A stretch of 41,232 nucleotides of DNA from a virus. The notes under the pieces are model-generated. The model was not told where the DNA came from and searched no databases. It saw only the letters and a program-made list of their open reading frames with translations. The DNA lies in the IMG/VR virus record IMGVR_UViG_3300046740_000426, positions 1 through 41,232 of that record, one strand, 5' to 3'. Both the position numbers and the translations under genes were made by a program. Below are positions 2,368 to 24,076 of this stretch, in pieces; the first letter of the stretch is position 1; each line of letters starts with the position of its first letter.

Positions 2368-3709
2368 GGGCGTCGACTTCGCGGCGCAGGACCCTCTCGA
2401 CTTCACCTGGTCGTACGGCGGCAACACCTACTCCGGTGTCCCCGGTGGCTATTCAGGCGCCCGCACGGAGCGGATGGAGACCAACTTCACCGGGATGGTG
2501 GAGGGCGCGTACAAGCGCAACGGCGTCGTCTTCGCCTGCGAGCGGGCCCGGCTGTCCGTCTTCTCCGAGGGCCGGTTCCAGTTTCAGCAGCTGCGTAACG
2601 GGCGGCCGGGCGACATGTTCGGCAACCAGGATCTGGGGTTGCTCGAGCGGCCGTGGCCGAACGGGACGACGCAGGACCTGATGACCCGGCTGTTGCAGGA
2701 CGCCGACCTGGCCGGCAACGCGTTCTGGACGGTCCGCAGCGGCAATCTGCGCAGGATGCGGCCCGACTGGGTGACGATCGTCATGGGCTCAGTGGAAGAC
2801 CCGGACATCCTGCCCGACGACCTGGACGCCGAGCTGCTCGGCTACGGCTACTGGCCCGGCGGCGCGCTGTCCGGCAAGGACCCGATCTTCCTGCTCCCGG
2901 ACGAGGTCGCGCATTTCGCGCCGACCCCGGACCCGCTCGCCCACTACCGCGGCATGTCGTGGATCTCCCCGATCGTGCGGGAGCTCGAGGCAGACAGCGC
3001 GGCGTCCTTGCACAAGCTCGCGTTCTTCCAGAACGGCGCCACCCTGCAAACGGTCGTCTCCTTCAAGGACATGAAGGAAGAGACGTTCGAGCGGTTCATG
3101 AAGAAGATGAACAACGCTCACCAGGGCGCGCAGAACGCCTACAAGACGCTGTATCTCGGCGGCGGCGCCGACGTGACCACGGTCGGCGCCGACATGCGCC
3201 AGCTGGACTTCAAGGTGACCCAGGGCGCCGGAGAGACCCGCATCGCCGCGGCCGCCGGCGTGCACCCGGTCATCGTCGGACTGTCCGAAGGACTGCAGGG
3301 GTCAAGCCTGAACGCGGGCAACTTCGGGGCCGCGCGTCGCCAGTTCGCCGAGGGAACGCTGTCGACGCTCTGGCGCAACGTGGCCGGCTCGCTGGCCACC
3401 CTCGTCCCGGCGCCCCCCGGCTCGCAGCTCGTCGTGGACACCCGCGACATCCCATTCCTGCGCGAGGACCAGCGCGACGCCGCAGCCATCCAGCAGCAGT
3501 ACGGCTCGACCATCGTGTCCCTGGCGACCGGCGGGTTCACCCGCAAATCGGCGATCGCCGCCGTGGTCGCCCAGGACATGACGCTGCTCGAGGAAGACCC
3601 GAACTGGGTGTCCGTGCAGCTTCAGCAGTCCGCCGTGACGCCTCCACCCACGCCCACGCCCGCGGTCAACGGCAACAAGCCCAGCATTCCCGCGCCCGCG
3701 GGCACGTAG
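2315..3709 (+). CDS. Portal protein, HK97 type
   Basis: A 464-aa portal protein, predicted to form the dodecameric ring at one capsid vertex through which DNA enters and leaves. The start chosen is TTG 2315, because GGGAGGGA lies at 2301-2308 at ideal spacing and the product then begins LNLLQSIRRAASS, a typical portal N-terminus; an upstream in-frame start would run through the membrane-protein gene. Portal-like segments include the wing region YKRNGVVFACERARLSVF, the stem region near WISPIVRELEADSAASLHK, and GVHPVIVGLSEGLQGSS, followed by a Pro-rich C-terminus. It sits between terminase and protease, as in HK97-like genomes. Confidence 0.93.
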   Translation: MNLLQSIRRAASSIRRYEGVDFAAQDPLDFTWSYGGNTYSGVPGGYSGARTERMETNFTGMVEGAYKRNGVVFACERARLSVFSEGRFQFQQLRNGRPGDMFGNQDLGLLERPWPNGTTQDLMTRLLQDADLAGNAFWTVRSGNLRRMRPDWVTIVMGSVEDPDILPDDLDAELLGYGYWPGGALSGKDPIFLLPDEVAHFAPTPDPLAHYRGMSWISPIVRELEADSAASLHKLAFFQNGATLQTVVSFKDMKEETFERFMKKMNNAHQGAQNAYKTLYLGGGADVTTVGADMRQLDFKVTQGAGETRIAAAAGVHPVIVGLSEGLQGSSLNAGNFGAARRQFAEGTLSTLWRNVAGSLATLVPAPPGSQLVVDTRDIPFLREDQRDAAAIQQQYGSTIVSLATGGFTRKSAIAAVVAQDMTLLEEDPNWVSVQLQQSAVTPPPTPTPAVNGNKPSIPAPAGT

Positions 3710-3721
3710 GAAGGCGATCTG

Positions 3722-4540
3722 ATGGTGGCCAGCACCGAGGAGTACGACCTGCCGATGTCCGGCATCATCCATCGGACCGTGCCGCTGGCGGACATCTCCG
3801 TCAAGCCGGGTCGCACCGTCGAGGCGTACCTGGCGGTGTTCGACACCGAGGCGGAGATCCGCGACGGCCAGGGCCACTACAAGGAGACCATCGACGGGTC
3901 GGCGTTCAACAAGGCGATCTCCGACGCGCGACCCCAGGGCTCCCGCGCGGGCTGGAAGACGTCGGTCTACTACAACCACGCGATGACGCCGTACGGGACG
4001 CCCAGCGAGCGCTGGTCCGCCCCGGTCGCGGTCACCCGCAACCTGGTCGTCGAGCCCCGCGGCGTGATCGCGACCGACCACTACATGGAGACCCCCGAAG
4101 GCGACCATGCGCTGGAGCTGGTGCGCGCCGGCGCGGTGAAGGGCTATTCCTTCACGGGTCGGCTTGTCCGCTCCAGTCCGAACCTTGTTCCGGGCCGAGG
4201 ATTCCGCCCTAGCGGCGGTGTTCTGCCCGTCGTGCGCCGCCTCGAGCTCGGCCTGTCGGAGTACGGGCCGACCCCGGAGCCCGCCTACGAGACGGCCGGC
4301 GTGCTCGGCGTCCGGGCCGACTTCGCCCAACTGCTCGCCGCCAACGGGTTCACCGTCGAACAGGCGATGCGCCTTCTCCCACTTCTGTCCGCCACTCCCG
4401 ACGCGGAGCCGGCGGACAGCGACACCTCCGAAACCTCGGAGGCCGTCGCCGTAGAGCCGCTCATCGAGCACTCGGATCGGCAGTCACCGTTCGCGCGTCG
4501 CCTTCAGGTGGCGCTGACCGCCAGAGGAATGCGCAGATGA
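3722..4540 (+). CDS. Prohead maturation protease (HK97 family)
   Basis: A 272-aa serine protease predicted to cut scaffold or delta-domain sequences during capsid maturation. The fold motifs are visible: YLAVFDTE (residues 36-43), a catalytic His86 in VYYNHAMTP, and a catalytic Ser143 in VKGYSFTGR. A variable acidic and helical C-terminal tail after about residue 205 could act as scaffold or capsid-targeting segment. A GGAAGG ribosome site precedes ATG 3722. The stop overlaps the capsid start by four bases (ATGA, 4537-4540), implying coupled translation. Confidence 0.92.
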   Translation: MVASTEEYDLPMSGIIHRTVPLADISVKPGRTVEAYLAVFDTEAEIRDGQGHYKETIDGSAFNKAISDARPQGSRAGWKTSVYYNHAMTPYGTPSERWSAPVAVTRNLVVEPRGVIATDHYMETPEGDHALELVRAGAVKGYSFTGRLVRSSPNLVPGRGFRPSGGVLPVVRRLELGLSEYGPTPEPAYETAGVLGVRADFAQLLAANGFTVEQAMRLLPLLSATPDAEPADSDTSETSEAVAVEPLIEHSDRQSPFARRLQVALTARGMRR

Positions 4541-5904
4541 TGAAGCTGCAGGACATCCTCGACCGGCAGACGGCCGTCCGCGCCGAGCTGCTCGAGATCG
4601 AGAAGAAGGACGACCGCACCGAGGAGGACGAGGCCTACACCGACACCCTGCTCACCGAGTGGGATGACCTGGAGGAGCAGCGCAAGCCGCTCGCCTCGCG
4701 GATGGAACGCCTCGACGCCGTCCGCTATGCGGCCAAGGACGAGCGGAAGGTCGAGAAGACCACGCCCGACCTGGTCGTCAGCCGCGACATGGACCCGTTC
4801 CAGGATCTGGACGCGGTCCGCTCGAAGATGATCCACCGCTCCGACATGATCGCCCGCGCGCAGACCGCCATCGAGCGCTGCAACCGGGTCGGCCAGATGA
4901 ACAGCGATTTCGCCGAGGCCGCGACCGTCAAGGTTCAGCAGGACCCGGGTATCGCCCGGCACCTGCTGCTGACCGGCTCGGACGAGTACCAGAAGGCGTT
5001 CCAGGCATACGTGGAGGACCCGGAAGGCCAGGCCTCGCGTGCGGCGCTGTCGCTGACCCTGGCCAACGGCGGCTACATGCTGCCGTTCGTCCTGGACCCG
5101 ACGATCGTGCTGACCAACTCCGCCTCGGCGAACCCGTGGCGGCGCATCTCCAACATCAAGCAGACCACGTCGAACACGTGGAACGGCGTCACCTCTGCCG
5201 GCGTCAACGCGGCGTGGCTCGCTGAGCAGACGATCGTCACGGACAACACCCCGACGGTCGGCAACATCCAGATCACGCCGCAGAAGGCCGCGGCATGGGT
5301 GTTCGGCTCGTACGAGGTCCTGGCCGACACCGACTTCGCCAACCAGTTGCCGATGCTGCTCGGCGACGCGAAGGACCGCCTCGAGGAGGCGGCGTTCGCG
5401 ACCGGCCCGGGTACGACCACCCCGACCGGCGTCATCACCGGCGCGACGACCGTGTACACCACGGCCACCACGCTGGTGTACGCCCTGGCCGACGTGTACG
5501 GCATCCAGGCCGCGCTGCCGGCCCGCTTCCGGACCTCACCGTCGGTGGCGTGGGCGATGAACGTGGCCTACATCAACCGGACCCGGCAGTTCGACACCGC
5601 CGGCGGCGCGAGCTTCTGGACGAACCTCGGCAAGGGCCAGCCGGAGACGCTGCTCGGCGCCCCGATCTACGAGTCGACGACGATGGCGGGTGTTGCGCCC
5701 GCGGTCGGCACGCTGATGGCCGTGTTCGGCGACTTCAGCAACTACTACATCGTCGACCGCGTCGGGGTGAGCCTCATGTACGAGCCCATGGTCAAGGGCA
5801 CGGGCGGCATCCTCCCGAACGGCCAGGCCGGCTGGTACATGTTTTGGCGTGTTGGAGCCGGTGTGTCCACACCTAACGCCTTCCGGGTCCTCAAGGGAGC
5901 CTGA
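4537..5904 (+). CDS. Major capsid protein, HK97 fold
   Basis: A 455-aa major capsid protein. Residues 1 to about 75 form a charged heptad-rich coiled coil (LQDILDRQTAVRAELLEIEK), typical of a cleavable delta/scaffold domain removed by the preceding protease. The mature shell domain includes NANGGYMLPF-type and WLAEQTIVTDNTPTVGNI segments characteristic of the HK97 fold in actinophages, plus the ATGPGTTTPTGVI loop. The gene is followed at once by a perfect 15-bp hairpin. No chain-mail crosslinking can be judged from sequence. Confidence 0.95.
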   Translation: MMKLQDILDRQTAVRAELLEIEKKDDRTEEDEAYTDTLLTEWDDLEEQRKPLASRMERLDAVRYAAKDERKVEKTTPDLVVSRDMDPFQDLDAVRSKMIHRSDMIARAQTAIERCNRVGQMNSDFAEAATVKVQQDPGIARHLLLTGSDEYQKAFQAYVEDPEGQASRAALSLTLANGGYMLPFVLDPTIVLTNSASANPWRRISNIKQTTSNTWNGVTSAGVNAAWLAEQTIVTDNTPTVGNIQITPQKAAAWVFGSYEVLADTDFANQLPMLLGDAKDRLEEAAFATGPGTTTPTGVITGATTVYTTATTLVYALADVYGIQAALPARFRTSPSVAWAMNVAYINRTRQFDTAGGASFWTNLGKGQPETLLGAPIYESTTMAGVAPAVGTLMAVFGDFSNYYIVDRVGVSLMYEPMVKGTGGILPNGQAGWYMFWRVGAGVSTPNAFRVLKGA

Positions 5905-5920
5905 CTCCAGAACGCTTTCA

Positions 5921-5960
5921 CGGGAAATGCCCGGCGCTTTTGCGTGCCGGGCATTTCCCG
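5921..5960 (+). terminator. Hairpin terminator after the capsid gene
   Basis: A perfect 15-bp inverted repeat (5921-5935 with 5946-5960, arm CGGGAAATGCCCGGC) around a 10-nt loop, 16 bases after the capsid stop. It lacks a long U tract, as is common in high-GC hosts. It probably lowers read-through from capsid into downstream genes or protects the abundant capsid mRNA 3' end. Confidence 0.75.
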
Positions 5961-6008
5961 TTCAAGAAAAGAAATGCAACCGCTTCTCATTGAGAGGAAG
6001 GCCGCGGC

Positions 6009-6203
6009 ATGAAGCAGGCCATCGAGTCGTTTTTCATCGCCGACGGCGAGGGGGGCGAGACGTTCGTGCCCAAGGGCAAGGTCCTGCCCGACAACCATCC
6101 GCACGCGACTGGCGCGCCGCTGCAGTTCGCGGACCTCGCCCTGGACGAGGTGCCGGCCGCCCCCGCGAAGCGCACCGGACTGGGTCGGCCGAAGGCGTCC
6201 TGA
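6009..6203 (+). CDS. Small hypothetical protein after capsid
   Basis: A 64-aa protein from ATG 6009 with a good GAGAGGAAGG site just upstream. It reads like the short actinophage proteins next to the capsid that contain a beta-strand module for something entered 'through' or 'with' a key (AIESFFIADGEGGETFVPKGKVLPDNHP) but of unknown function. Its stop overlaps the next start (TGATG at 6201-6205). A minor head component is possible. Confidence 0.7.
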   Translation: MKQAIESFFIADGEGGETFVPKGKVLPDNHPHATGAPLQFADLALDEVPAAPAKRTGLGRPKAS

Positions 6204-6535
6204 TGGCGACCCTGCCCGGCTACCGCGTCTTCCAGACCATCACGCCGGCGACGACTGGCGCGTCCCCCATCGTCTCGCCGTTCATCGACACCACCGGGTA
6301 CACGAACCTCGCCGTGTCGTATTTCGCGGCGAACTCGACCGGCGCCACCGCAGTGACCGTCGAGGGCAGCTTCGACGGCACCACGCAGGACACGGACATG
6401 ACCTATGCGGCGCTGACGTCCAGCGCCACCGCTATCGCCGTGGTTCCGCTGCTGCATCCCTACTTCCGGGTGCGGATCGTGCAGACCACGGCGAACGCGA
6501 CCACCACCAAGATCTGCATGCAATCGAGGGCGTGA
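6203..6535 (+). CDS. Probable virion beta-sandwich protein
   Basis: A 110-aa protein from ATG 6203. Alternating Thr/Ala-rich strands (SPFIDTTGYTNLAVSYFA, TAVTVEGSFDGTT) and an absence of charged helices suggest a small beta-sandwich, the usual architecture of capsid decoration or head-fibre proteins. Position just after the capsid supports a decoration role. No family is recognised with confidence. Confidence 0.72.
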   Translation: MATLPGYRVFQTITPATTGASPIVSPFIDTTGYTNLAVSYFAANSTGATAVTVEGSFDGTTQDTDMTYAALTSSATAIAVVPLLHPYFRVRIVQTTANATTTKICMQSRA

Positions 6536-6795
6536 TGGCTGACTACGGAATTCAGACGACGCCGGACGGTGTCGGTGCGGTGAATGCGCGGATGGCGCCG
6601 ACGGTGCCGATGTCCGTGGAGCAGGCGATGGCCTACATGCAGACCCGGCAGTCCGACACGTACGACCAGGGATCGACCATCGGAGAATCGATGGAGGTGC
6701 CGGATCCGGTGTCGATGTGCGGCAACGAACCGATGGACCCGGACGCCGCGATGGACGCCTCCGGGCACGAGCCGATGGGAACGATGGACACGTGA
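6532..6795 (+). CDS. Met/Asp-rich small protein
   Basis: An 87-aa acidic protein, GTG 6532 or ATG 6535, overlapping the preceding stop. It is striking for its methionine content and repeated PMD/AMD/PMG motifs (NEPMDPDAAMDASGHEPMGT). It looks largely disordered. No function is recognised. It is co-translated with the neighbouring small genes, so a structural or assembly role is possible. Confidence 0.65.
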   Translation: MMADYGIQTTPDGVGAVNARMAPTVPMSVEQAMAYMQTRQSDTYDQGSTIGESMEVPDPVSMCGNEPMDPDAAMDASGHEPMGTMDT

Positions 6796-6986
6796 GCCAG
6801 CCGACCTCGAACATGGAACCGACCCGCCTGCCGCCGACCGACGGCATGACCCCGCTCGACTACGGCCAGCAGATGTACATCCCGGACGTCCAGCCGATGG
6901 TCGATCTGAACGTGCCGATCCCGGCGGTCGGCACGGTCGACAGCGCGGAGGGGTCTCCGATCGGCGGCCCGTTCCTCAACGGGTGA
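6792..6986 (+). CDS. Small hypothetical protein
   Basis: A 64-aa protein from GTG 6792 (GTGA overlap with the previous gene). Like its neighbour it is proline- and methionine-rich (TPLDYGQQMYIPDVQPM), which suggests the two may be diverged relatives or partners. Disordered, with no recognised family. The stop overlaps the glycosyltransferase start by four bases. Confidence 0.6.
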   Translation: MSQPTSNMEPTRLPPTDGMTPLDYGQQMYIPDVQPMVDLNVPIPAVGTVDSAEGSPIGGPFLNG

Positions 6987-7648
6987 GCCCGGCCGCGGTA
7001 GCCGGGTATGTGCATCCCGGCACGGTACGCGCGGAGTTCATGACCTCGCTGCTGGGCGTGCTGCGCCGCGGTGAGACCCGCCTCGACGAGGTGCTCGCGG
7101 TGCGGTCGGGGCCGAACATCGCTGCGGCCCGGAACCTGATCGTCGAGCGGTTCCTCACGGAGCAGAGGGCTCCGTGGCTGTGGATGCTCGACACGGACAT
7201 GGTGTTCGCCGCAGACACCCTCGACCGGCTGGTCGCCGCCGCGGACAGCCGGGACCGGCCGATCCTGGGCGCCCTGTGCTACCAGGAGACCGACGACGGG
7301 CAGGTCCGGCCGACCATGTACGAGCTGGTCGAGGGCCCGGCGTTCGCCTGGTATCAGCAGTGGCCGGACGACAAGGCTGTGCCCGTCGCGGCCACCGGCG
7401 CCGCGTGCCTGCTGATGCACCGCACCGCGCTGGAGAACATCGCCAGCCGTAACCGGTCCAGGGACACCCCGTGGCCCTGGTTCAAGGAGACCGAGTTCGG
7501 CGGCCGGCGCATCGGCGAGGATCTGGCGTTCTGCCTGCGCGCGGGTGTCGCCCGGATCCCCGTGCACGTTCATACCGGAATCCGAGTGGGACATGTCAAA
7601 TCGACGGTGATCGGGGGCGATGGCGGTGCCATACCCGACGCCCGCTGA
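6983..7648 (+). CDS. GT-A-like glycosyltransferase
   Basis: A 221-aa protein from GTG 6983 resembling GT-A glycosyltransferases. It has a nucleotide-sugar-binding start (VRSGPNIAAARNLIVERFL, residues 40-58), a DxD metal motif at Asp70-Thr-Asp72 after hydrophobic WLWML, a GEDLAFCLRAG acidic motif (Glu179-Asp180) where the catalytic base usually lies, and a C-terminal His204 in RVGHV. Placement inside the virion operon suggests it glycosylates capsid or fibre proteins, as shown for some mycobacteriophages. The donor sugar and target are unknown. The 3' end overlaps the connector gene by 29 bases. Confidence 0.82.
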   Translation: MSPAAVAGYVHPGTVRAEFMTSLLGVLRRGETRLDEVLAVRSGPNIAAARNLIVERFLTEQRAPWLWMLDTDMVFAADTLDRLVAAADSRDRPILGALCYQETDDGQVRPTMYELVEGPAFAWYQQWPDDKAVPVAATGAACLLMHRTALENIASRNRSRDTPWPWFKETEFGGRRIGEDLAFCLRAGVARIPVHVHTGIRVGHVKSTVIGGDGGAIPDAR

Positions 7649-8171
7649 TCTGGCTTCGTTCCTCAAGTACGACGTCGACACGGCCACGGCAACGCTGGAC
7701 CTGGCCAAGATCACGGCCCTGTTCGAGGCGCGGGCGAAGTCCCACTGGGGCGGCACCCTGTCGACGACGTACAGCAAGCCCGGCTCCGGCTGCGCCGAGA
7801 TCATCATGCCGTTCGCCCCGTTGGTGAGCGTCGCGCAGGTCCGGCTCAAAGGCGTCGTGCTGACCGCCGGCACGGACTACACGGTCATCGAGCAGTCGCT
7901 GTACCGGCGTAACGGCTGGGGCCGCTGGTCGGCGTTCCCGCCGGATCTGGTCGAGGTCGATTACACCTACGGCTACGCCACGGTCACCGACGACGTGGCC
8001 GGCGCCGTGCTGGAGTCCGCGGGCGCCGCGTACTCGTCGCCGGACATCAGCATCCTGTCCGAGGCGGTCGACGACTACTCGGTGAAGTCCGCGCCGCGCA
8101 CCGGCGGCATGTCGCTGTCCGAGTCTGCCGCGGCGCTGGCCGACTGGTACGCCGGCCCGCTCGTCGGCTGA
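7620..8171 (+). CDS. Head-tail connector/adaptor protein
   Basis: A 183-aa protein resembling gp6/gp15-type adaptors that sit below the portal. The N-terminal helical half (PTPADLASFLKYDVDTATA) is followed by the typical central beta segment (PFAPLVSVAQVRLKGVVL, YTVIEQSLYRR) and WSAFPPDLVEVDYTYGY, then a C-terminal helix. It starts at ATG 7620 inside the end of the glycosyltransferase. Unusually, the other connectors do not follow directly; a 4.8-kb fibre-like island separates them. Confidence 0.85.
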   Translation: MAVPYPTPADLASFLKYDVDTATATLDLAKITALFEARAKSHWGGTLSTTYSKPGSGCAEIIMPFAPLVSVAQVRLKGVVLTAGTDYTVIEQSLYRRNGWGRWSAFPPDLVEVDYTYGYATVTDDVAGAVLESAGAAYSSPDISILSEAVDDYSVKSAPRTGGMSLSESAAALADWYAGPLVG

Positions 8172-8214: not shown

Positions 8215-9954
8215 GTGCAGTTCCCGAGCGCAGTCTCCCAGGTTCCCGGCTTCTGGCGGATCTTCGGCCACTCCTACCTGGAGAACCAGCTCGGCACGGC
8301 TGACCAGACGGGCCGGCCGGACGGCATCTTCAGCGACATCATGTCCGTGCTGTCCAATGAGAAGCAGAACTGGGCGGTCACCGGCTCCGAGGTGATGAAG
8401 CAGGGCGTCTCGCAGGGTGGCTACGCCCGGCTGCTACAGGCCGTACCCGGTGCGATCCGGGGTGCCCCGTACGTGTCCAACGGTGGTGCGTCGCTGATCT
8501 GCTGGGGCATCAACGACATGGGCAAGTCGGGAACGGGCGCCACGTTCCTGTCGGCCTACATCGACGCGATGCGCACCTGCATCAGCCGGATGCGGATGGC
8601 GTCGATCAAGGAGAACTCGGACGCCTCGGTCTCCTATGGCGCCGGTTTCACCCTGGCGACGACCTCGAAGGAGTGGACGTCCGGGGTCGACTACCGGACC
8701 GCTACCGCTACGACGAACGCCAACTTCACGATCACGCTGCCGGCCGACTACGACGGCTCCCCGGTCGTCCTGTGCTTCAACGGGATCGTCAACGGCGGCC
8801 AGGGCACGTTCTCTGGCACCGCGGGCGTGACGGGCACGTTCTCCACCTCGGCGATCATCCCCTCGTCGGAGGCGTCCCACGCGCCCCGCATCAAGCGGAT
8901 CACCAACCTCACCGCGGCGAACGCCGGACAGACGATCATCTTCACGGTCAACGCCATCGACGCGTCCGGCTCAGTCGATTTCGACTGCTGGTGGATCGAG
9001 GCCGCGAATCCGCCGCCGGTTATCGTGATGGACATCGTCCGGTTGAACTCGCTGGGCTACAGCGGCTTCGCGCAGTTGTCCGGCAACTCGGTGGCCGTCA
9101 ACGACGCCCTGGTCGGCACATGGAACGACGCGCTGTACCGGATGTGCGCCGAGTTCGACCCGATGGTCCAGGTCGCCTACTGCGACGCCGCAGTGAACAA
9201 GAACGCGTCCTACCTGTGGTCGGTCGACGGCACGCACCCGACCGAGTTCGGGTCGGCGGCGCTGGCCGACGCCATCTACGCGGCGGTCCGGCAGCTCGGT
9301 ACGGCCACAGGCAAGATGACACCGGCCGCGTACATCAATCCGCCGGCACCCCGCGGCGGCTCGCTGCTGCGGCTGCACCGTCCGGGCGGCGCAAACTACT
9401 ACACCTCCGAGTACGACTTCATCGGCGCCGCATACACGATGGTGTCCGGCGACATGTTCGCCATCCCGTTCCAGGCGACCTATCCGCGGCTGCGGATCCA
9501 GGGCTTCGCCTGTGAGGTCACCACGGCCATGTCGACTACGGCCGGCACGATTCGGTGGGGTCTCTACGACGACCCGGGCCAGTCGGGCTACCCGTTCAGC
9601 CTGATGACGGAACTGACCTCTGGCGGGGCGTTCTCGCTGGGGACCACGACGGGCGTGAAGACCAGCCCGGCGCCGGCCGCCGCGGGCAGCATCGACAAGC
9701 CGATCGATCCGGGCATCTTCTGGCTGGTCATGGAGATCACGGCGATCGGCTCGCCCACCGGCGCCCTGCGGACCCTGTCGGGCAAGAACCTGCTCCTGCC
9801 CAACGTGACCACGACCGGGCTGCCGTTGACGACGAACACCGGGTTCATGGGCTACAAGCTGACCGGCCAGGGCACCGGCGTGTTGCCGTCGTCGTTCCCG
9901 ACCGGCGGGGTGCTGTCGGATAACTGCCCGTACATCGGCTTCAAATTCCAGTGA
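8215..9954 (+). CDS. SGNH-hydrolase fibre-like protein
   Basis: A 579-aa protein from GTG 8215, behind ACGGAGGTCT. The first ~365 residues look like an SGNH/GDSL hydrolase: block I RIFGHSYLEN with Ser20, block III CWGIND with Asn100, block V DGTHP with Asp338 and His341; an Ig-like insertion lies around residues 140-260. Catalytic residues appear intact, although the usual GDS is GHS. The C-terminal part (residues 370-579) has IRWGLYDD and DPGIFWLVME, motifs typical of beta-rich fibre-tip domains. Together this suggests a surface fibre that removes acyl groups from cell-envelope glycans or binds them. Its place between connector genes is odd; a head fibre is possible. Confidence 0.8.
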   Translation: MQFPSAVSQVPGFWRIFGHSYLENQLGTADQTGRPDGIFSDIMSVLSNEKQNWAVTGSEVMKQGVSQGGYARLLQAVPGAIRGAPYVSNGGASLICWGINDMGKSGTGATFLSAYIDAMRTCISRMRMASIKENSDASVSYGAGFTLATTSKEWTSGVDYRTATATTNANFTITLPADYDGSPVVLCFNGIVNGGQGTFSGTAGVTGTFSTSAIIPSSEASHAPRIKRITNLTAANAGQTIIFTVNAIDASGSVDFDCWWIEAANPPPVIVMDIVRLNSLGYSGFAQLSGNSVAVNDALVGTWNDALYRMCAEFDPMVQVAYCDAAVNKNASYLWSVDGTHPTEFGSAALADAIYAAVRQLGTATGKMTPAAYINPPAPRGGSLLRLHRPGGANYYTSEYDFIGAAYTMVSGDMFAIPFQATYPRLRIQGFACEVTTAMSTTAGTIRWGLYDDPGQSGYPFSLMTELTSGGAFSLGTTTGVKTSPAPAAAGSIDKPIDPGIFWLVMEITAIGSPTGALRTLSGKNLLLPNVTTTGLPLTTNTGFMGYKLTGQGTGVLPSSFPTGGVLSDNCPYIGFKFQ

Positions 9955-9969
9955 GGTAGGAGGCACGCC

Positions 9970-10512
9970 ATGTCCGGTACCTACCTATCCGAGTCGATCA
10001 GTCCGTTCGCGGTCGCGAGCCGCGCGACGAACACCTTCACCACGAAGCAGGACGTCACCCCAGCCTTCCTGCCGGTGATCACCGCCGGGAAGTTGGGTCC
10101 TGGCACACAGATCAGCATCCGCGCGAGCGGCCGGTACTCGACGACGGGCACGCCGAACCTGACGCTGGGGTTCTGGCACGGCACCCGCGCCGGCTCCATC
10201 ACCGGTGACGTGGCCCTCTCCAGCGTCATCGCCACGGCCACGGCGACGCTGTGGCCGTGGGACATGTGGTGGGACGGGATATGCACCGCCCCGGGCACGT
10301 CGGGCACCCTGCTCGGCATGGGCGGCCTTCAGCTCGGCGCGTCGCTGACGACCTACAACGCCGAGGTGCCGATCCCGATCACCGACGCTCTGTGCACCGT
10401 CACCCTGGACACCACGATCGAACGGGCGATCGGTGTCTCTGCGACATGGTCCGCGTCGTCCGTGTCCAACGAGGTCCGGGTCTATTACCACCGGGTCCTG
10501 ATCTACAACTGA
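9970..10512 (+). CDS. Predicted beta-sandwich virion protein
   Basis: A 180-aa protein with a strong AGGTAGGAGG site before ATG 9970. It is nearly all beta-forming Thr/Ser/Val/Gly sequence, with a Trp cluster (TLWPWDMWWDG) and a C-terminal strand EVRVYYHRVLIYN. It resembles small actinophage decoration or fibre-associated domains. Located between the SGNH fibre and the repeat protein, it is probably part of the same surface assembly. No named family is assigned. Confidence 0.75.
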   Translation: MSGTYLSESISPFAVASRATNTFTTKQDVTPAFLPVITAGKLGPGTQISIRASGRYSTTGTPNLTLGFWHGTRAGSITGDVALSSVIATATATLWPWDMWWDGICTAPGTSGTLLGMGGLQLGASLTTYNAEVPIPITDALCTVTLDTTIERAIGVSATWSASSVSNEVRVYYHRVLIYN

Positions 10513-10522
10513 GGGCGGCGCC

Positions 10523-12364
10523 GTGCCCCGGTCGAACCAGCCCGACGTCCCGCTCTGGTTGCTGCGGGCGGTCATCGCCTCGCGGCAGCCTCACAGTCCG
10601 GCGCCCTTGGCCGGCGGCCCGTTCTCGCGCACCGACCTGTTGCAGGCCATCACCGGCACGAGCGGCAACTTCGGCACCGGCAACTTCACCACCGGCAGCT
10701 TCACCCCGCCGTCGAGCTCGCTGCTGGTCGTCGGCGTCGGGTTCATCGAGAACAACGGCACCACGACCGACCCGGCGAGTTCGATTACGCTGTCCGGCGG
10801 CGGCCTGACCTGGACGCCCGGCCCGTCGATCAGTTCCTCGCCGACGAGCTTCCCGACAGCGGCGAAGATCTTCACCGCGCCGGTGAGTTCCGGCTCGTCG
10901 ATGACCCTGACCGTCGGCTCCGGCGGGCGCACCGCCGGCATGTACGCCGTCTCGGTGGTCGCCTACACCGGCTACGACACCGGCACCCCGACCGGTACAA
11001 CTGCGACCGGCCAGCAGAACGGCGGTTTCTCCGGCCCGCCCACCCCGGCCTCGATCACGCTGTCCGCGGGCCCGGCGAGCACGTCGGAAGTGTTCGCCGC
11101 CGTGGCGATGAACAAGAGCGTCCTCGGGGTCACGCCCGGCAGTTCGCCGACCGTGTACACCGAGATCCACGACGGGATGGAGAACACCGACTGGGGCGGC
11201 CTCGAATCTGAGGCCCGGTCGGGTTCCACATCGACCTCGGTCAGCTGGGACGACCTGCGGTCCGGCGCGGGCGCGCTGTTCAACTTCGCCGCCGTCGCGA
11301 TCGAGATTCGCGCCGCATCCGGCGGCGGCACCACCAACGGCACAGCCACGCTCGCCGGAGCAGGCGCGGCCACGGCCGTCGCAGTCCAGGTGGCGAGTTC
11401 ATCGCCGGCCGGCGCAGGCACGACTACCGCCGCGGCGACACAGGCCGCCGGCTCCTCTCCGGCCGGCGCGGGTGTGCTCACCGCGGCCGCAACGGTCATC
11501 GCCGCCGGCAGCGCATCCCTGGCTGGGACCGGCGCGGTCACGGCCGTCGTCAGACAGATCGCCGGATCTGCGCCAGCCGGCGCGGGCGCGCTCGCAGCCG
11601 CCGGCGTCCAGGGTTCCGGCTCGGCCCTAGCCGGCGCGGGCGTCGTATCGGCGCTGGTGGTACAGCAGGCCACCGCTGCTCTGACCGGAGCGGGAACGCT
11701 GGCCGCGAACGCGGGCGGCACCGTACCCGGCACGGCCACGTTGGCCGGCGCGGGCGCGGTCACCGCGGCAGTAGTTCAGCGGGCCGGCGCATCCCCGACC
11801 GGGGCCGGCGCCGTGGCCGCGGTCGTCACGCAGCAGGCCACCGTTCTATCGGCCGGCGCGGGCACGCTGGCGGCAACCGTCGTCCAGCAGGCCACCGCGT
11901 CCTCGGCCGGCGCCGGCATACTCACTGCCGGCGCCGCTGGCACGGTCACCGGCGCTGCCGTCATCGCCGGCGCGGGTGCGCTGAGCGCCGTTGCTGTCCA
12001 GCGGGCCGCCGCGAGTCCGGCGGGCGCCGGCTCGCTCGCCGCGACGGGAGCCGTCACCGGAACCGCCGCGCTGGCCGGCGCCGGCGCGCTGACCGCGCTG
12101 GTCCGGCAGCAGGCCACCACCGCTATTGCCGGTGCGGGCAGCCTCACCGTCTCGGCGGGCGGCACCGTCACCGGCACCGCGTCACTCGCAGGCGCGGGCG
12201 CGGTAACGGCGACCGTCGGCGGTCGGATCACCTACCGCCCGTCCTCAGGTGTCACCACCAGGCCGAACAGCGGCATCACCGCTCGGCCTAACTCGGGAAC
12301 CACGACCAGGCCCGGCAGCGGCATCACGATTCGCCCGTTCACGACTACGACCCCGCGGCCCTGA
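10523..12364 (+). CDS. Repeat-rich fibre-like structural protein
   Basis: A 613-aa protein from GTG 10523. Residues 1-270 form a globular beta-rich head with Trp-containing strands (TSVSWDDLRSGAGALFNFAA), similar to galactose-binding-like folds. Residues ~274-567 consist of about 16 repeats of ~18 residues around [AS]xxAGAGxLTA, almost without charge. The C-terminus carries four to five 8-residue repeats of the form RPNSGITA, making it basic. The repeats probably form an extended rod or solenoid. It follows the SGNH fibre and beta-sandwich genes, so a surface-exposed shaft is the best guess; the Ser/Thr-rich surface would be a natural glycosylation target. Confidence 0.8.
   Translation: MPRSNQPDVPLWLLRAVIASRQPHSPAPLAGGPFSRTDLLQAITGTSGNFGTGNFTTGSFTPPSSSLLVVGVGFIENNGTTTDPASSITLSGGGLTWTPGPSISSSPTSFPTAAKIFTAPVSSGSSMTLTVGSGGRTAGMYAVSVVAYTGYDTGTPTGTTATGQQNGGFSGPPTPASITLSAGPASTSEVFAAVAMNKSVLGVTPGSSPTVYTEIHDGMENTDWGGLESEARSGSTSTSVSWDDLRSGAGALFNFAAVAIEIRAASGGGTTNGTATLAGAGAATAVAVQVASSSPAGAGTTTAAATQAAGSSPAGAGVLTAAATVIAAGSASLAGTGAVTAVVRQIAGSAPAGAGALAAAGVQGSGSALAGAGVVSALVVQQATAALTGAGTLAANAGGTVPGTATLAGAGAVTAAVVQRAGASPTGAGAVAAVVTQQATVLSAGAGTLAATVVQQATASSAGAGILTAGAAGTVTGAAVIAGAGALSAVAVQRAAASPAGAGSLAATGAVTGTAALAGAGALTALVRQQATTAIAGAGSLTVSAGGTVTGTASLAGAGAVTATVGGRITYRPSSGVTTRPNSGITARPNSGTTTRPGSGITIRPFTTTTPRP
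11343..12225 (+). repeat. About 16 tandem ~54-bp coding repeats
   Basis: In-frame degenerate tandem repeats with units of 17-19 codons, each containing a GCCGGCGCGGGC-like core that encodes AGAG, followed by LTA and a VVQQAT or GTVTG linker. Two linker types (VQxA and GTVxG) alternate irregularly, which suggests duplication of multi-unit blocks. Copy number could change by slippage or recombination. Confidence 0.9.
12235..12348 (+). repeat. 24-bp coding repeats (RPxSGxTx)
   Basis: The C-terminal coding region of the repeat protein holds successive 8-codon units: RPSSGVTT, RPNSGITA, RPNSGTTT, RPGSGITI. It gives a basic tail of evenly spaced Arg-Pro pairs, distinct from the neutral AGAG repeats before it, and might be an attachment or polysaccharide-binding segment. 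Confidence 0.85.
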
Positions 12365-12374
12365 TGGAGAGCAG

Positions 12375-12518
12375 ATGAGCGACGAACCCACGCCCGGCCC
12401 GGACCTTGAGCAAGCTCCCGGCTGGCAGGTGATCGACCCCGACGGCAACGTCGTCGACTCCGGCCCGATCGTCCAGCTCGAAGCCGTGGGCAACCCCGAC
12501 GGCGAAGAGCAGGAGTAG
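12375..12518 (+). CDS. 47-aa acidic small protein
   Basis: A 47-aa protein from ATG 12375, ending three bases before the next start. Strongly acidic, with a recognisable beta hairpin (WQVIDPDGNVVDSGPIVQL), a pattern seen in many small actinophage virion-cluster proteins. No function is known. The tight spacing with its neighbours supports it as a real gene. Confidence 0.6.
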   Translation: MSDEPTPGPDLEQAPGWQVIDPDGNVVDSGPIVQLEAVGNPDGEEQE

Positions 12519-12520
12519 CA

Positions 12521-12949
12521 ATGGCCGCCATCGACAACACGATGATCTCGAATCTTCTCAACTCGACTACACCGACCGGGGCGGCCGGGATCCCCGGCAC
12601 GTTCTCGGCGCTGGGTGGCACCGCGATGAAGGTCCGGCTCAACTCCACCGCGAGCACAGCTTCGGCCGCCGGTACGGAACTCACCGGCACGGGCTACACC
12701 GCCGGCGGCACCGCCGTACCGGCCGCGTCCGCGGCGTCGTCGGCGGGCAGCGCGGTGACCCTGCCCGCGACGTCGGCGCTGTCGTGGGTCAACGGCTCCG
12801 GCGGCGCGTGGTCGATCGTGTCGATGGACCTCACCAGCTCCGCAGGCACGCGGGCCTGGTTCGGCAGCTTCACCGGCCAGCCGATCTCCGTCGCGAACGG
12901 CAACACGTTCCAGATCGCTGTCGCCGGCGTATCGATCTCGCTGACCTAA
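12521..12949 (+). CDS. Predicted small tail/fibre beta protein
   Basis: A 142-aa protein. The layout (ISNLLNSTTPTG start, MKVRLNSTASTASAAGTEL, TGTGYTAGG, then strands ending VAGVSISLT) matches the Gp80-like small phage proteins that describe a non-enzymatic beta fold, often annotated as tail-fibre or decoration proteins. It closes the fibre-like island; its TAA stop lies directly before the next ATG. Confidence 0.7.
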   Translation: MAAIDNTMISNLLNSTTPTGAAGIPGTFSALGGTAMKVRLNSTASTASAAGTELTGTGYTAGGTAVPAASAASSAGSAVTLPATSALSWVNGSGGAWSIVSMDLTSSAGTRAWFGSFTGQPISVANGNTFQIAVAGVSISLT

Positions 12950-13354
12950 ATGGCCCGCGAGATCGTCCTCACCCGCGCCCGGGCCTTCGCCGAAACGGGC
13001 ATGTCGGATGCCTGCACGATCCGGCGCCGCACTGGCGAGACCACCGACCCGGTCACGGGCGTGGTCACCCCGACCTACCTGAGTCCGGACCCGTACGCAG
13101 GCAAGTGCCGGGTCCAGCAGCGGCCCGGCCCGTCTCGTCCGCATGAGGTCAGTGAGGACTTCGTGCTGATCGGCCGGCTGGAGATTCAGCTGCCGATGGC
13201 GGTGACCGGCCTGAAGGTGGCCGACGAGATCACGGTGACGGTGTCGACGCACGACCCGGACCTGGTCGGCCGGGTGTTCCTGATCCACGGCCTGGCACAT
13301 AAGACGGATGCGTCGTCGCGGCGTGTGGCGGTCACTGAGCGGACGGGGTTCTGA
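12950..13354 (+). CDS. Head closure/stopper protein (DUF6093-like)
   Basis: A 134-aa protein with the order typical of actinophage head-closure proteins: N-terminal helix REIVLTRARAFAETGMSD, CTIRRRTGETTDPVTG, a beta barrel with YAGKCRVQQRP, and VGRVFLIHGLAHKTDASSRR near the end. The predicted role is to seal the portal-adaptor complex after packaging and provide the tail docking face. The call uses similarity to DUF6093 recalled from family knowledge plus position; its stop overlaps the next start (TGATG). Confidence 0.8.
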   Translation: MAREIVLTRARAFAETGMSDACTIRRRTGETTDPVTGVVTPTYLSPDPYAGKCRVQQRPGPSRPHEVSEDFVLIGRLEIQLPMAVTGLKVADEITVTVSTHDPDLVGRVFLIHGLAHKTDASSRRVAVTERTGF

Positions 13355-13752
13355 TGCCGGTCTCGTCGATGAAGTTCGACGCCACTGAAGTGATCGAGCT
13401 CGCCGAGTTCCTGGCGCGTGCGCCGGGTGTCGCGGCGGCCGCGGTGAAGCCGACCGTGGCCCGTGGCGCCTACCAGATCAAGAAGGATGCGAAGAGTCGC
13501 GTCGCGGGCCTGCGGCACCTGCCGGCCTACCCGTCGTCGATCACCTACGACACCCATGCGAGCAGCTCTGCGGTCTGGGCGGACATCGGCCCGGAGAAAG
13601 GCCGCCGGCAGGGACCGCTGGGCAACATCGTCGAGTACGGGTCGCCGACCAGCGCGCCTCACCCGCACATGGCGCCGGCCGCAGAGGCGGAGCTACCGAA
13701 GTTCGCGGCCGTGCTCGAAACGATCGCGGCGAAGGCGACCGGTCTCGGATGA
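13354..13752 (+). CDS. HK97 gp10-like tail-joining protein
   Basis: A 132-aa protein. The C-terminal half GNIVEYGSPTSAPHPHMAPA is the hallmark of HK97-gp10-like neck proteins, and the N-terminal helix KPTVARGAYQIKKDAKSRV also fits. It is predicted to lie at the head-tail joint. ATGA overlap with the next gene (13749-13752). Confidence 0.87.
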   Translation: MPVSSMKFDATEVIELAEFLARAPGVAAAAVKPTVARGAYQIKKDAKSRVAGLRHLPAYPSSITYDTHASSSAVWADIGPEKGRRQGPLGNIVEYGSPTSAPHPHMAPAAEAELPKFAAVLETIAAKATGLG

Positions 13753-14162
13753 GCACGATCCAGGCCCACGCCGACGCCGGGCTGAACCTGCTGCGCACCG
13801 ACGCGCAGTTGACGGTATTTGACGGCAGGGTCGGTGACAGCCCGCCGGACCACTACGTGGTCGTCCACTCCTTCCGCCAACTTCCGTCAGGTCTCGTCGA
13901 GCCCGACAAGATCAAGCTCAACGGCCGGTCGACGGTCGTGGACATGCGGTTCTACTGCCACTGTGTCGGCCGCACCGAGATGGCCGCACGGGCCATCGCC
14001 GGCCGCGTGGAAGACCTGCTGCTCGACGTGACGCTGATCGTCGGGAGCCGGACGTGTCTGCCGTTGCGGTGGATCGAGGGTCAGCCGCCGACGCGCAACG
14101 AGGACACGCTGGCGCCGTCCTTCGACCAGGTCGACGTGTACGGCTTTCAGAGCTCGGGCTGA
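13749..14162 (+). CDS. Tail terminator protein
   Basis: A 137-aa protein in the position and of the size of tail terminators, which cap the tail tube and set its end. Segments fit: a helical start (ADAGLNLLRTDAQLTVF), a strand pair DHYVVVHSF / VVDMRFYCHCVG, helix MAARAIAGRVEDLLLD, and a C-terminal strand FDQVDVYGFQS. The family call is by position and fold pattern. Its last 16 bases overlap a gene on the opposite strand. Confidence 0.75.
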   Translation: MSTIQAHADAGLNLLRTDAQLTVFDGRVGDSPPDHYVVVHSFRQLPSGLVEPDKIKLNGRSTVVDMRFYCHCVGRTEMAARAIAGRVEDLLLDVTLIVGSRTCLPLRWIEGQPPTRNEDTLAPSFDQVDVYGFQSSG

Positions 14163-14416
14163 TCCTCGGCGTGCTCGCGCGCCCATCGGCGCCGGTCACT
14201 ATAGGCGATCGCGGTGAGGATGCCGAAGACGATCGCGCCGATGGCGAAGCCGCCGATCGCGGCCATGTCCGTGTTGTCGCCGGCAGACCGGGCGAACAGG
14301 CCGAACGCCGCGAAGCCCCACAGGATCCGGATGCTCCGCCACTGGATCGACCACGAGCGGACGGGCATGCGCAGCGGCTCGTCGTGCTCGGCCTTGTCGC
14401 TCTGCGTGTCATTCAC
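14147..14416 (-). CDS. Membrane protein, moron-like
   Basis: An 89-aa protein read against the structural operon, starting at GTG 14416. After a charged N-terminus (NDTQSDKAEHDEPL) come two hydrophobic helices, about residues 30-42 (ILWGFAAFGLF) and 52-70 (AAIGGFAIGAIVFGILTAI), and a charged C-terminal tail. It fills the only large gap in the tail operon and has its own -10 box TACAGT seven bases before the start codon, the pattern of a leaderless mRNA. This is what a lysogeny-expressed moron looks like; superinfection exclusion is a reasonable but untested guess. A longer form from upstream starts is less likely. Confidence 0.65.
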   Translation of the reverse strand: MNDTQSDKAEHDEPLRMPVRSWSIQWRSIRILWGFAAFGLFARSAGDNTDMAAIGGFAIGAIVFGILTAIAYSDRRRWAREHAEDQPEL

Positions 14417-14423
14417 GGCGAGC

Positions 14424-14429
14424 ACTGTA
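14424..14429 (-). promoter_or_regulatory. Leaderless-type promoter of moron gene
   Basis: On the minus strand, TACAGT (TANNNT -10) sits exactly seven bases before GTG 14416, so transcription would start at or next to the start codon. The -35 side is weak (GTGATC with 16-bp spacing). Confidence 0.55.
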
Positions 14430-14497
14430 CGCCCCGCATGCACGAGATCACCGTCCGCTGATCGGCGGACTGTCCACATCCACCGAAAGGCAGCGCC

Positions 14498-14830
14498 ATG
14501 ACGCTGATGGTGCCCCAGTCGGTCGTCACGACCGGCACGACTCCAACGCCGATCACGCCGACGGCCTCGGACACGATCAACGGCTCGACCGCCGGCACCG
14601 ATGGTTGGAACCTGCGGGTCATCACGACCGGCACCTTGTCCAACATCTCGGTGCTTGACCCGAACTTCACCATCCAGGGCAACCCGGGAACGGTCACAGC
14701 GCTCGCGGCGCCGGCTACCGGCGTGCGGATGTTGCTTGTCCCGAAGTCAGCGATTAATCCAGCGACCGGCCTCGTCACGATCACGTCGTCCTCGCAGGCC
14801 GGCATGACCTACGAGCTGTACATCGCCTGA
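14498..14830 (+). CDS. Predicted beta-rich virion protein
   Basis: A 110-aa protein with a GAAAGG site before ATG 14498. Thr/Val/Ile-rich strands (TPTPITPTASDTINGST, LSNISVLDPNFTIQG) and a C-terminal AGMTYELYIA strand point to a single Ig-like or jelly-roll domain. It lies between the tail terminator and tail tube genes, so a tail-associated decoration protein is plausible. Family not recognised. Confidence 0.75.
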   Translation: MTLMVPQSVVTTGTTPTPITPTASDTINGSTAGTDGWNLRVITTGTLSNISVLDPNFTIQGNPGTVTALAAPATGVRMLLVPKSAINPATGLVTITSSSQAGMTYELYIA

Positions 14831-15147
14831 TGTCCGCCTTCTGGATTGCCGACGCCACCGGCGTACACGCCCTGATCGAGGGCGACGAACAACAAGAGAC
14901 GTGGGTCGGCCTGCGCGGCTGGCACGTCGCTAGCCCACCGAGCTCTGCCGATCAGGTCCGGGTCGTCAACGGTGACCTCTTCGGCTGTGTCCCCTTCGCG
15001 GCCCTCGCCGACGGCTGGGCCGATCTCGGCTGGAAGCCCGGACCGCCGCCCGAGCCCGTCGACCTGACGCGTGATCCGGCCCCCGCTCCGACCGCCGAAC
15101 CGCCCAAGCCAAAGACCAAGACCGCCGGAAAGACCGAGGAGAAGTAG
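14830..15147 (+). CDS. Hypothetical protein with basic tail
   Basis: A 105-aa protein starting at ATG 14830 (TGATG overlap). It has a small globular N-terminal domain (FWIADATGVHALIEGDEQQE, then a GDLFGCVPFAALADGW segment) and a Pro/Lys-rich disordered C-terminus (EPPKPKTKTAGKTEEK). It ends three bases before the tail tube gene. Tail-assembly role is assumed from position only. Confidence 0.7.
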   Translation: MSAFWIADATGVHALIEGDEQQETWVGLRGWHVASPPSSADQVRVVNGDLFGCVPFAALADGWADLGWKPGPPPEPVDLTRDPAPAPTAEPPKPKTKTAGKTEEK

Positions 15148-15150
15148 CCC

Positions 15151-15633
15151 ATGGCCGACATCGTCAGTGATGGCTTTACCCGTGTCGCCTGGGTGACGAC
15201 CATCGCGTCCATCGCCCTTCCGACCACCACCGAGCTGAACGCCGGCATCCTGCTGCACGACGTGATGACCTCGGACGGTTTCACCGGCTTCCAGGCGGAT
15301 ACCGCCGCGGTGCCGACGTCCAAGTTCTCCAGCACGTTCGATACGAGCCAGCCGGGCCGGATCAGCTTCTCCGGCACCATGCTCCGGTTCTGCAAGCAGG
15401 CCTCCGGCGACACGGTGTTCACCACGCTGTACGCCAAGGGTGTCGCCGGGTTCGTGGTCGTACGCCGCTCCCTCGCCGCGACGACGGCGTGGGCGTCCGC
15501 CCAGGCCATCGAGGTGTATCCGACGGTCACTGGCCAGGGCCGCAAGCTCGACCCCGAGCCGAACACCCTGGAGCGCTGGGAGTCGCCGCTGATGTTCTCC
15601 CTCACGCCGAACCTCGCCGCGGCCGTCGCCTGA
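15151..15633 (+). CDS. Major tail tube protein
   Basis: A 160-aa protein in the tail tube position before the frameshifted chaperones and followed by a strong terminator, as expected for a highly expressed gene. Features of actinophage tube proteins: ADIVSDGFTRVAWVTTIAS, PTTTELNAGILL, a STFDTSQPGRISFSGTMLRF strand region and GVAGFVVVRR. The subunits are predicted to stack as hexameric rings. Confidence 0.88.
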   Translation: MADIVSDGFTRVAWVTTIASIALPTTTELNAGILLHDVMTSDGFTGFQADTAAVPTSKFSSTFDTSQPGRISFSGTMLRFCKQASGDTVFTTLYAKGVAGFVVVRRSLAATTAWASAQAIEVYPTVTGQGRKLDPEPNTLERWESPLMFSLTPNLAAAVA

Positions 15634-15647
15634 TCCTCCACCTCTGC

Positions 15648-15673
15648 GCCGCCTCCGACCGGGGCGGCTTTTT
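15648..15673 (+). terminator. Intrinsic terminator after tail tube
   Basis: An 8-bp stem (15648-15655 with 15661-15668, one G-U pair) with a 5-nt loop, followed directly by five T's (15669-15673). Classic Rho-independent terminator. Confidence 0.85.
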
Positions 15674-15676
15674 GCT

Positions 15677-15708
15677 GCCCGGCCGGCGCCACCCGACGCC
15701 GGCCGGGC
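15677..15708 (+). terminator. Second, backup hairpin
   Basis: A perfect 12-bp GC stem (arm GCCCGGCCGGCG, 15677-15688 with 15697-15708) and an 8-nt loop, four bases beyond the T run of the first terminator. No T run follows. Likely a backup or RNA-stability element between tail tube and chaperone genes. Confidence 0.65.
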
Positions 15709-15736
15709 GCCCATCGGGTATCGGGTGAGGAGCACC

Positions 15737-16312
15737 GTGGCACCACGACGTACTACCGCGAAGGCCGCCGCTCAGGCGCCGGATTTCCTGACGCTGCTCG
15801 CCGCCGCCGCGCTGCCGCAGCGCACTGTGCCGGTCTGCCTGCGCGGCGACCTGCAAGCCCAGCACGAGACCGCCGATCGGGAACTGGAGGCGCTGCTCAA
15901 GGAAGGCTCCGGAAAGTTCAACGACGGCCGTGGCGCGCTGAAGGCGAAACTGCTCGCGCTCGAGGCCGAGATGAAAGCGGCCACGTACGAGTTCCGGCTC
16001 CAGGGACTCGCGCGGCCGCAATACCGCGCGTTCATCGCCGGGTATCCGATGCGGATCGAGGAAGACGGCAGCCTCCACCAGGAAGACCGGGTCTACGGCT
16101 TCAACATCGACGGTGGCGCCGAGCCACTGGTACGGCGCTGCCTCGTCGACCCCGTCCTCGACGCCGACGGCTGGGCGCGGCTGATGGAAGCGCTGACCGA
16201 GCGGCAGTTCGATGATCTGGCCGGTGCCGCCTGGTACCTGAACCGTGGGGACGTGGACGTCCCTTTCTCGCGCGCCGCGTCGCGGCTGACGGAGACTTCC
16301 GAGCCCGAGTAG
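15737..16312 (+). CDS. Tail assembly chaperone (G-type)
   Basis: A 191-aa protein starting at GTG 15737, chosen because GTGAGGAG at 15725-15732 provides the ribosome site; an in-frame GTG at 15725 is inside it. It is helical with a charged middle (FNDGRGALKAKLLALEAEMK) and a C-terminal region EALTERQFDDLAGAAWYLN, as in chaperones that bind the tape measure. By family knowledge, the G and GT forms coat the tape measure during tail assembly. A slippery heptamer at 16261-16267 lies 45 bases before the stop. Confidence 0.87.
   Translation: MAPRRTTAKAAAQAPDFLTLLAAAALPQRTVPVCLRGDLQAQHETADRELEALLKEGSGKFNDGRGALKAKLLALEAEMKAATYEFRLQGLARPQYRAFIAGYPMRIEEDGSLHQEDRVYGFNIDGGAEPLVRRCLVDPVLDADGWARLMEALTERQFDDLAGAAWYLNRGDVDVPFSRAASRLTETSEPE
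16261..16267 (+). other. -1 frameshift slippery site CCCTTTC
   Basis: Read in the zero frame as C CCT TTC, this is a canonical X XXY YYZ heptamer. Slipping back one base pairs the two tRNAs with CCC and TTT and opens the -1 frame, which is free of stops from 16216 to 16672. The product is a 312-aa G-T fusion instead of the 191-aa G protein. Confidence 0.82.
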
Positions 16313-16674
16313 AGCTCGCCGACCGCCTCGGCGTTCCGCCGTCGCGGCTGGACGGCCGGGAGCCGGCCGAGGTCACCGAACACGAATATGACGGCGAGCG
16401 TCTGGTCCGGTCGGTGACGACCCGGGAGCCGCTGTTCACCGAGCAGGACCGTGCCGAGCTGCTTGCCCTGGCGCTCTACCGCGACGGCCTGTGCCCGCTC
16501 TGCGGCCGGCCGCGCGAGGTGTGCGGCGCGCCCGAGGGCACCCACCGGTTCGAGCCCGTCTGGGAGGTCTGCCAAGCCACCCGCACGGTCGTCGAGAAGC
16601 AGAACGGCACCTACACGGCCGACAACTATCCCACCCGCGCCGCCCACCTGTGGGGCACCAGGATCCGGAGGTGA
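16267..16674 (+). CDS. Tail chaperone T extension, by frameshift
   Basis: A 135-codon reading frame entered by the -1 slip. The part at 16267-16410 has no ATG but is clearly protein-like: ADRLGVPPSRLDGREPAE, then VTEHEYDGERLVRSVTTREP, a sequence style very common in actinophage tail-chaperone extensions. The C-terminus has a possible zinc motif CPLCGRPREVC and WEVCQ. It cannot be well expressed without the fusion, although a GTG at 16414 gives an 86-aa stand-alone form. It ends four bases before the tape measure start. Confidence 0.83.
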   Translation, partial: LARRVAADGDFRARVELADRLGVPPSRLDGREPAEVTEHEYDGERLVRSVTTREPLFTEQDRAELLALALYRDGLCPLCGRPREVCGAPEGTHRFEPVWEVCQATRTVVEKQNGTYTADNYPTRAAHLWGTRIRR

Positions 16675-16677
16675 GCG

Positions 16678-24051: not shown

Positions 24052-24076
24052 TCACGCTGGTGCGTGAGGCACGCTG

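Follow-up and report, generated by a model that had tools for sequence, protein, structure and literature searches.

The window studied here is the whole 41,232-nucleotide IMG/VR record IMGVR_UViG_3300046740_000426, and its genes follow the order of a siphophage: large terminase subunit (TerL), portal, protease, major capsid protein (MCP), glycosyltransferase, head-tail adaptor, an inserted island, head closure protein Hc1, Neck1, tail genes, and lysin. Our subject is the island at positions 8215-12949, which consists of five same-strand genes spaced by 0-43 bp (Table 1). These limits had been proposed in a first-pass annotation and proved correct; the two small proteins counted there are those of 47 and 142 amino acids. 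No promoter- or terminator-like sites were found inside 8215-12949, and the GC content of the island is 0.70 compared with 0.69 for the whole record. Adaptor and Hc1 genes are normally adjacent, as the same annotation had assumed. A survey of neck gene order gave a mean inter-gene distance of 1 between Ad1 and Hc1 (Lopes et al., 2014, PMC4362835), and the two genes are adjacent or overlapping in the cultured phages AGM1 (Brevibacterium), Chymera (Streptomyces), and Richie and Persistence (Arthrobacter).

Comparison with two relatives established the boundaries of the island and its exchange. Positions 101-8171 share 88-91% DNA identity with one contig (sampled as two stretches, L017 and L005), and the match stops exactly at the adaptor stop codon at 8171. 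Positions 12950-23367 are 82-90% identical to a different contig (L010), and that match starts exactly at the Hc1 start codon at 12950. The island DNA matches neither contig save for 123 bp, positions 12220-12342, which are 75% identical to L005 and encode part of a C-terminal tag carried by the island's repeat protein. The islands of L005 and L010 each encode their own, different proteins, and each includes a tagged protein. Because homology breaks at the adaptor stop and the Hc1 start and the island is foreign to both relatives, we regard the island as established to be a discrete cassette, exchanged where the head and tail modules meet. The first-pass description of its contents was also borne out. 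The cassette brings together a repeat protein, beta-rich proteins, and an SGNH enzyme that contains a carbohydrate-binding-like insert; it is separate from the tail-tip gene and is exchanged as a unit.

The presence or absence of the island in relatives, a comparison that the first-pass annotation had called for, was determined for related loci containing both flanking genes, 61 rows from 60 distinct contigs in all. The gap between adaptor and Hc1 was at most 12 bp in 11 rows and 0.5-9.6 kb in the other 50, a fraction that is not a population frequency because the loci were sampled mostly by similarity to the window adaptor. With 50 of 61 rows carrying an insert at this place and breakpoints that coincide with the stop and start codons of the neighbouring genes, the insert is not a chance event. 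On a tree of adaptor plus Hc1, the island-less state requires at least five changes (mean of 10.3 after shuffling) and the tag at least seven (shuffled mean of 19.0), so both states are inherited within clades and have been gained or lost several times. Pfam and PHROG scans of 84 island representatives returned mostly unnamed families; some representatives matched glycosyltransferase, methyltransferase, PhoD, or endonuclease VII families. One of the 11 loci with adjacent genes (L059), in which adaptor and Hc1 overlap by 4 bases, has a tagged island at 9368-13565 between Hc1 and Neck1 instead. What had been overlooked earlier is that the interval is a hotspot with exchangeable content, marked by the C-terminal tag.

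The tag is found at the end of the 613-amino acid repeat protein, which has an N-terminal domain of a family that recurs in many islands, followed by about 15 Ala/Gly-rich repeats of 18-20 residues and the terminal RPxxGxT octapeptides, whose coding DNA contains a 24-bp tandem repeat (12252-12327). One protein with at least two terminal RPxxGxT repeats is encoded in 38 of the 50 complete islands. The tag was also sought with a DNA pattern for three repeats that is blind to neighbouring genes, which returned 46 stretches from IMG/VR and 62 from GTDB genomes. A genuine C-terminal tag was present in 40 of the 46 viral stretches (counting the previously seen L071), several of which are near copies of one another and hence not independent events; the other six matches were out of frame or internal. 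In 38 of the 40, the available DNA contains a homologue of adaptor, Hc1, or Neck1. Among the GTDB stretches a single one encodes a C-terminal tag, in a prophage of Actinoplanes palleronii NBRC 14916, where it lies between adaptor and Hc1. The prophage follows the order of the window (adaptor, tagged protein, gp80-like protein, Hc1, Neck1, major tail protein, tape measure protein), and a prophage in another genome of the Actinoplanes family is island-less. A looser tag pattern applied to 354 genomes of that family gave mostly chance-like matches besides the known prophage. In the neighbour-blind scan the C-terminal tag was essentially confined to the neighbourhood of neck genes.

The 579-amino acid product of the first island gene is assigned to the SGNH hydrolase superfamily as a predicted esterase. 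Searches with sequence alone gave weak matches (Pfam GDSL, E 0.02; 9otv, E 0.014). We found 44 homologues, and the SGNH signature was recognized from the 38 that were aligned: all of them have S20, G69, N100, and H341, and at least 90% retain D338. S20 is the block I serine within FGHSY, in which the usual Asp of GDS is replaced by His; G69 and N100 (in GIND) provide the oxyanion residues of blocks II and III; and D338 and H341 make up the DxxH of block V, the Asp being absent in one homologue (L004). A structure model built with the 38 sequences (predicted local distance difference test, pLDDT, 89.7; predicted template modelling score, pTM, 0.89) displayed the alpha/beta/alpha SGNH fold, with VIA Z scores of 19.0 to GDSL esterase 7e16 and 15.6 to CE2 2wao. 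Matches of the modelled core to CE2 and acetyl-mannan esterases ranged over Z 14-16, and the insert within it resembled CBM35 at Z about 11. The protein therefore shares its predicted fold and all four block residues with SGNH/GDSL hydrolases such as CE2, acetyl-mannan esterase CEX, and 7e16, but differs from them in having GHS for GDS, a CBM-like insert within the core, and a phage C-terminal domain. The best match of the latter in the model was 9jwb_Z, a chain of the capsid asymmetric unit of cyanophage A4 (Z 19.1, root-mean-square deviation 2.8, 174 residues aligned). No close homologue of the SGNH protein was found in cultured phages. In one related locus (L002) the SGNH gene lies upstream of a gene that is lysin-like by sequence resemblance.

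The last island protein, of 142 amino acids, is related by iterated search in both directions to gp80, the fibre I protein of phage GP4. When gp80-like proteins served as seeds, it was recruited in round 2 at 1.7e-11, or at 9.9e-14 under strict inclusion; a reverse search seeded with the window-protein family reached GP4 gp80 at 2.1e-4 in round 4; at an inclusion threshold of 1e-5 the reverse search did not reach it. The protein has no Pfam match at E 1, PF23140 included, and we therefore term it a relative within the gp80 superfamily rather than a family member. With plain hhalign, small alignments of three families (the 142-amino acid proteins, the gp80 proteins, and another set of small beta proteins) gave no significant match to one another; iterated searching connected the 142-amino acid and gp80 families, and for the remaining family no link is claimed. 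Gp80-like proteins of other islands match PF23140 (2.5e-26), phrog_240 'head protein', and PDB 8jou (2e-12). Homologues of the beta-rich 180-amino acid protein occur in 9 of the 50 complete islands and also near the SGNH genes of other phages; it had no match in Pfam, PHROG, or PDB and no close homologue in cultured phages.

Table 1. Features of the island and of the genes around it in the 41,232-nucleotide window.
Feature	Position	Strand	Basis or comment
SGNH hydrolase (predicted), 579 aa	8215..9954	+	core ~residues 11-126 and 268-375, insert 127-266, C-terminal domain 384-579
CBM35/CBM36/CBM6-like beta-sandwich in SGNH core (predicted)	8593..9012	+	residues 127-266; VIA Z 10-11: 2w47, 4qb2, 1ux7
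C-terminal domain of SGNH protein	9364..9951	+	resembles 9jwb_Z, cyanophage A4 capsid asymmetric-unit chain
Beta-rich protein of unknown fold, 180 aa	9970..10512	+	iterated hidden Markov model (HMM) search, 31 members
Tagged repeat protein, 613 aa	10523..12364	+	N-terminal domain, ~15 repeats, RPxxGxT octapeptide tail
C-terminal tag ITYRPSSGVTTRPNSGITARPNSGTTTRPGSGITIRPFTTTTPRP	12227..12361	+	reaches stop codon
Acidic protein, 47 aa	12375..12518	+	gene call; cluster relatives in 11 loci
142-aa protein, relative within GP4 gp80 (fibre I) superfamily	12521..12949	+	iterated HMM search
Head-tail adaptor (left flank)	7620..8171	+	phrog_442, 7e-19
Head closure / stopper Hc1 (right flank)	12950..13354	+	phrog_13779, 8e-15
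Neck1 / tail completion	13354..13752	+	phrog_5, 4.5e-7; directly after Hc1
Tail-tip protein, 899 aa	19530..22229	+	phrog_5313, 6e-110
Glycosyltransferase-like gene	7040-7648		phrog_34859, 7e-15 for longer open reading frame
LuxR/GerE-type helix-turn-helix open reading frame	24064-24666		5e-10
TROVE/Ro60-like protein	25482-27026	-	Pfam TROVE, 4e-19
Tyrosine integrase	29112-29981	-	Phage_integrase, 1.3e-12
D12 class adenine DNA methyltransferase	40124-40966		1.7e-17

The right-flank gene also matches phrog_161 'head closure Hc1' weakly (0.025), and its homologues from Arthrobacter phages are labelled 'head-to-tail stopper', the one from Brevibacterium phage AGM1 DUF6093. The glycosyltransferase-like gene precedes and overlaps the adaptor gene, and its homologues are close to adaptor or MCP in many relatives. 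Downstream of the lysin is a helix-turn-helix reading frame, in place of which gene calls favour two shorter genes. Past the lysis region, on the opposite strand, lies the gene for the TROVE/Ro60-like protein, a member of an RNA-binding protein family that is unusual for a phage. The window phage is probably temperate, given its tyrosine integrase gene. An actinobacterial host is suggested by the prophage in Actinoplanes and by relatives of the window capsid and tail proteins in actinophages.

Two independent similarities, one between the 142-amino acid protein and GP4 gp80 and the other between the modelled C-terminal domain of the SGNH protein and the cyanophage A4 capsid-unit chain, point to the head or neck. 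We consider, with a probability of roughly 0.5, that the products of the island are appendages of the virion, attached to the head-tail joint or close to it (neck or portal vertex). The first-pass annotation had proposed neck or capsid fibres, and the two similarities speak for the head/neck part of that proposal; the position in the virion and the fibrous nature are putative. Such appendages would provide auxiliary binding and ester cleavage of host-surface glycans. The 613-amino acid protein would be an elongated stalk or rope held through its C-terminal RPxxGxT tail, the gp80-like 142-amino acid and the 180-amino acid proteins would sit on this stalk as beads or adaptors, and the SGNH/CBM-like protein would form the enzymatic head that binds glycan and removes O-acyl groups. 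Cassettes would be exchanged at the adaptor-stop and Hc1-start boundaries, and tail-tip receptor binding and the island appendages would thus vary independently. The island is probably a site where these phages swap host-contacting appendages. A bolder idea, which we regard as tentative and on balance doubtful, is that the RPxxGxT tail is an undescribed docking element with which unrelated appendages plug into one site near the head-tail joint in a large set of soil actinobacterial siphophages.

There are precedents for neck fibres, for collars, and for adaptor fibres that bear esterases. According to Zheng et al. (2023), GP4 fibre I reportedly consists of gp80 dimers strung along a rope protein, which is attached to a 15-fold ring encircling the head-tail adaptor. 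The superfamily of gp80 (PF23140, PDB 8jou) is common to the island 142-amino acid protein and the gp80-like proteins of other islands, although GP4 is a podophage, unlike the window siphophage, and the window protein lacks a direct PF23140 match. By description, the proposed architecture is also like the long fibre gp53 of Pseudomonas phage DEV, which was modelled as a 15-fold (15:12) collar on the head-tail adaptor with projecting esterase-like domains, 'like in the podophage GP4' (PMC10925440). There too an esterase-like domain is held out from an adaptor collar, but gp53 is one long polypeptide and DEV is a podophage. The neck passage structure (NPS) collars of lactococcal phages (TP901-1 and 936 phages) bear carbohydrate-esterase-like modules, and the TP901-1 NPS has been proposed to attach to the portal, to be co-expressed with the capsid, and to be non-essential (PMC6669499). 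Like the island products as we see them, the NPS is a collar that siphophages may have or lack, that varies, and whose modules are related to esterases or bind carbohydrate (PMC6669499); it consists of one protein with a BppU-like N-terminus, whereas the island encodes several proteins and a C-terminal tag, and no sequence match between the two was found. In Anabaena phage A-1(L), several small proteins encoded in one operon form bead-chain neck fibres (PMC10966104), which again resemble the island by description; their genes are far from other structural genes (PMC10966104), whereas the island lies among them.

Several observations weigh against anchoring at the head-tail joint. Gene order alone is weak evidence for virion position, because the neck-fibre genes of A-1(L) are distant from structural genes (PMC10966104) and because in Arthrobacter phage Persistence a structural relative of the SGNH protein is probably encoded by the 'hydrolase' gene that follows the endolysin. 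Another structural relative, in Gordonia phage Beenie, is labelled 'minor tail protein', and the modelled C-terminal domain has a weaker likeness to the Bxb1 tail tip (9d93_Pa, Z 12.6) and also to a Douge central-fibre domain. The RPxxGxT tag has no known binding partner. No BppU-like N-terminal domain of the collar-building kind came to light, though no search aimed at one was made. Finally, virion presence, position, fibre assembly, the role of the tag, and the substrate are inferred.

Two other virion positions are the main rivals, both with some structural support. The island proteins could be tail-tip receptor-binding proteins whose genes moved into the neck cluster, which we consider unlikely. 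The minor tail label and the Bxb1 and Douge resemblances fit such an origin, as does the minimal tail cluster of the window, in which the tape measure gene is followed only by the genes for the 899-amino acid tip and a 175-amino acid protein before the lysin. Streptomyces phage Chymera has a similarly short set of tip genes without an island, so a short tip does not call for one and speaks for neither view; for the same reason, we dropped the notion of an island that makes up for a lack of tail-tip fibres. The 899-amino acid protein is 98.8% identical in L010, whose island is entirely different, which argues against tight docking on the tip, and kinship with gp80 directs attention to the surroundings of the adaptor. 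Tail-tip genes are expected downstream of the tape measure gene together with other tip genes, and the island lies between adaptor and Hc1; this position lowers the claim to the tail-tip family, not the possibility that the products are located at the tip.

Alternatively, the SGNH and other island proteins might decorate the capsid, binding the head surface as head fibres rather than the neck, and this too is improbable in our estimate. The best match of the predicted C-terminal domain is a capsid-unit chain, and gp80-like proteins fall within a PHROG labelled 'head protein'. Moreover, in three related loci (L237, L239, and L243) the SGNH homologue is encoded a little after MCP and ahead of adaptor-like genes; this is another slot in the same head/neck module and also speaks for the main reading. 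In L239 and L243 a 142-amino acid-type protein is encoded upstream of it and a repeat protein directly downstream. Against a capsid location, the tagged protein nearly always adjoins adaptor, Hc1, or Neck1 and not MCP. Least probable is that the island carries accessory non-virion cargo, a secreted or cell-surface enzyme with unrelated genes, for despite the variable content and the few relatives' island proteins that match glycosyltransferases, methyltransferase, or endonuclease VII, its five tightly spaced, co-directional genes are part of the late structural operon, its beta-rich proteins have virion relatives, and each tagged island encodes one tagged protein.

A search of the open-access literature found no title or abstract that reports a variable region between adaptor and stopper. 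Within the open literature searched, two findings are new: in these siphophages the adaptor-Hc1 interval is a hotspot of cassette exchange, and the RPxxGxT tag marks it. The search for host-range determinants usually centres on tail-tip genes. In this phage, an enzyme and a carbohydrate-binding-like module belong to a second gene set that is swapped independently and is located among the genes for the head-tail joint, and such cassettes are present in dozens of uncultured phages and in the prophage of a cultured Actinoplanes. If the products are indeed neck appendages, the island shows how such structures diversify through cassette exchange, and the C-terminal tag offers a simple sequence handle for locating such structures and probing their anchorage. 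If the tag serves in docking, the adaptor-Hc1 interval would be a modular socket for swappable neck appendages.

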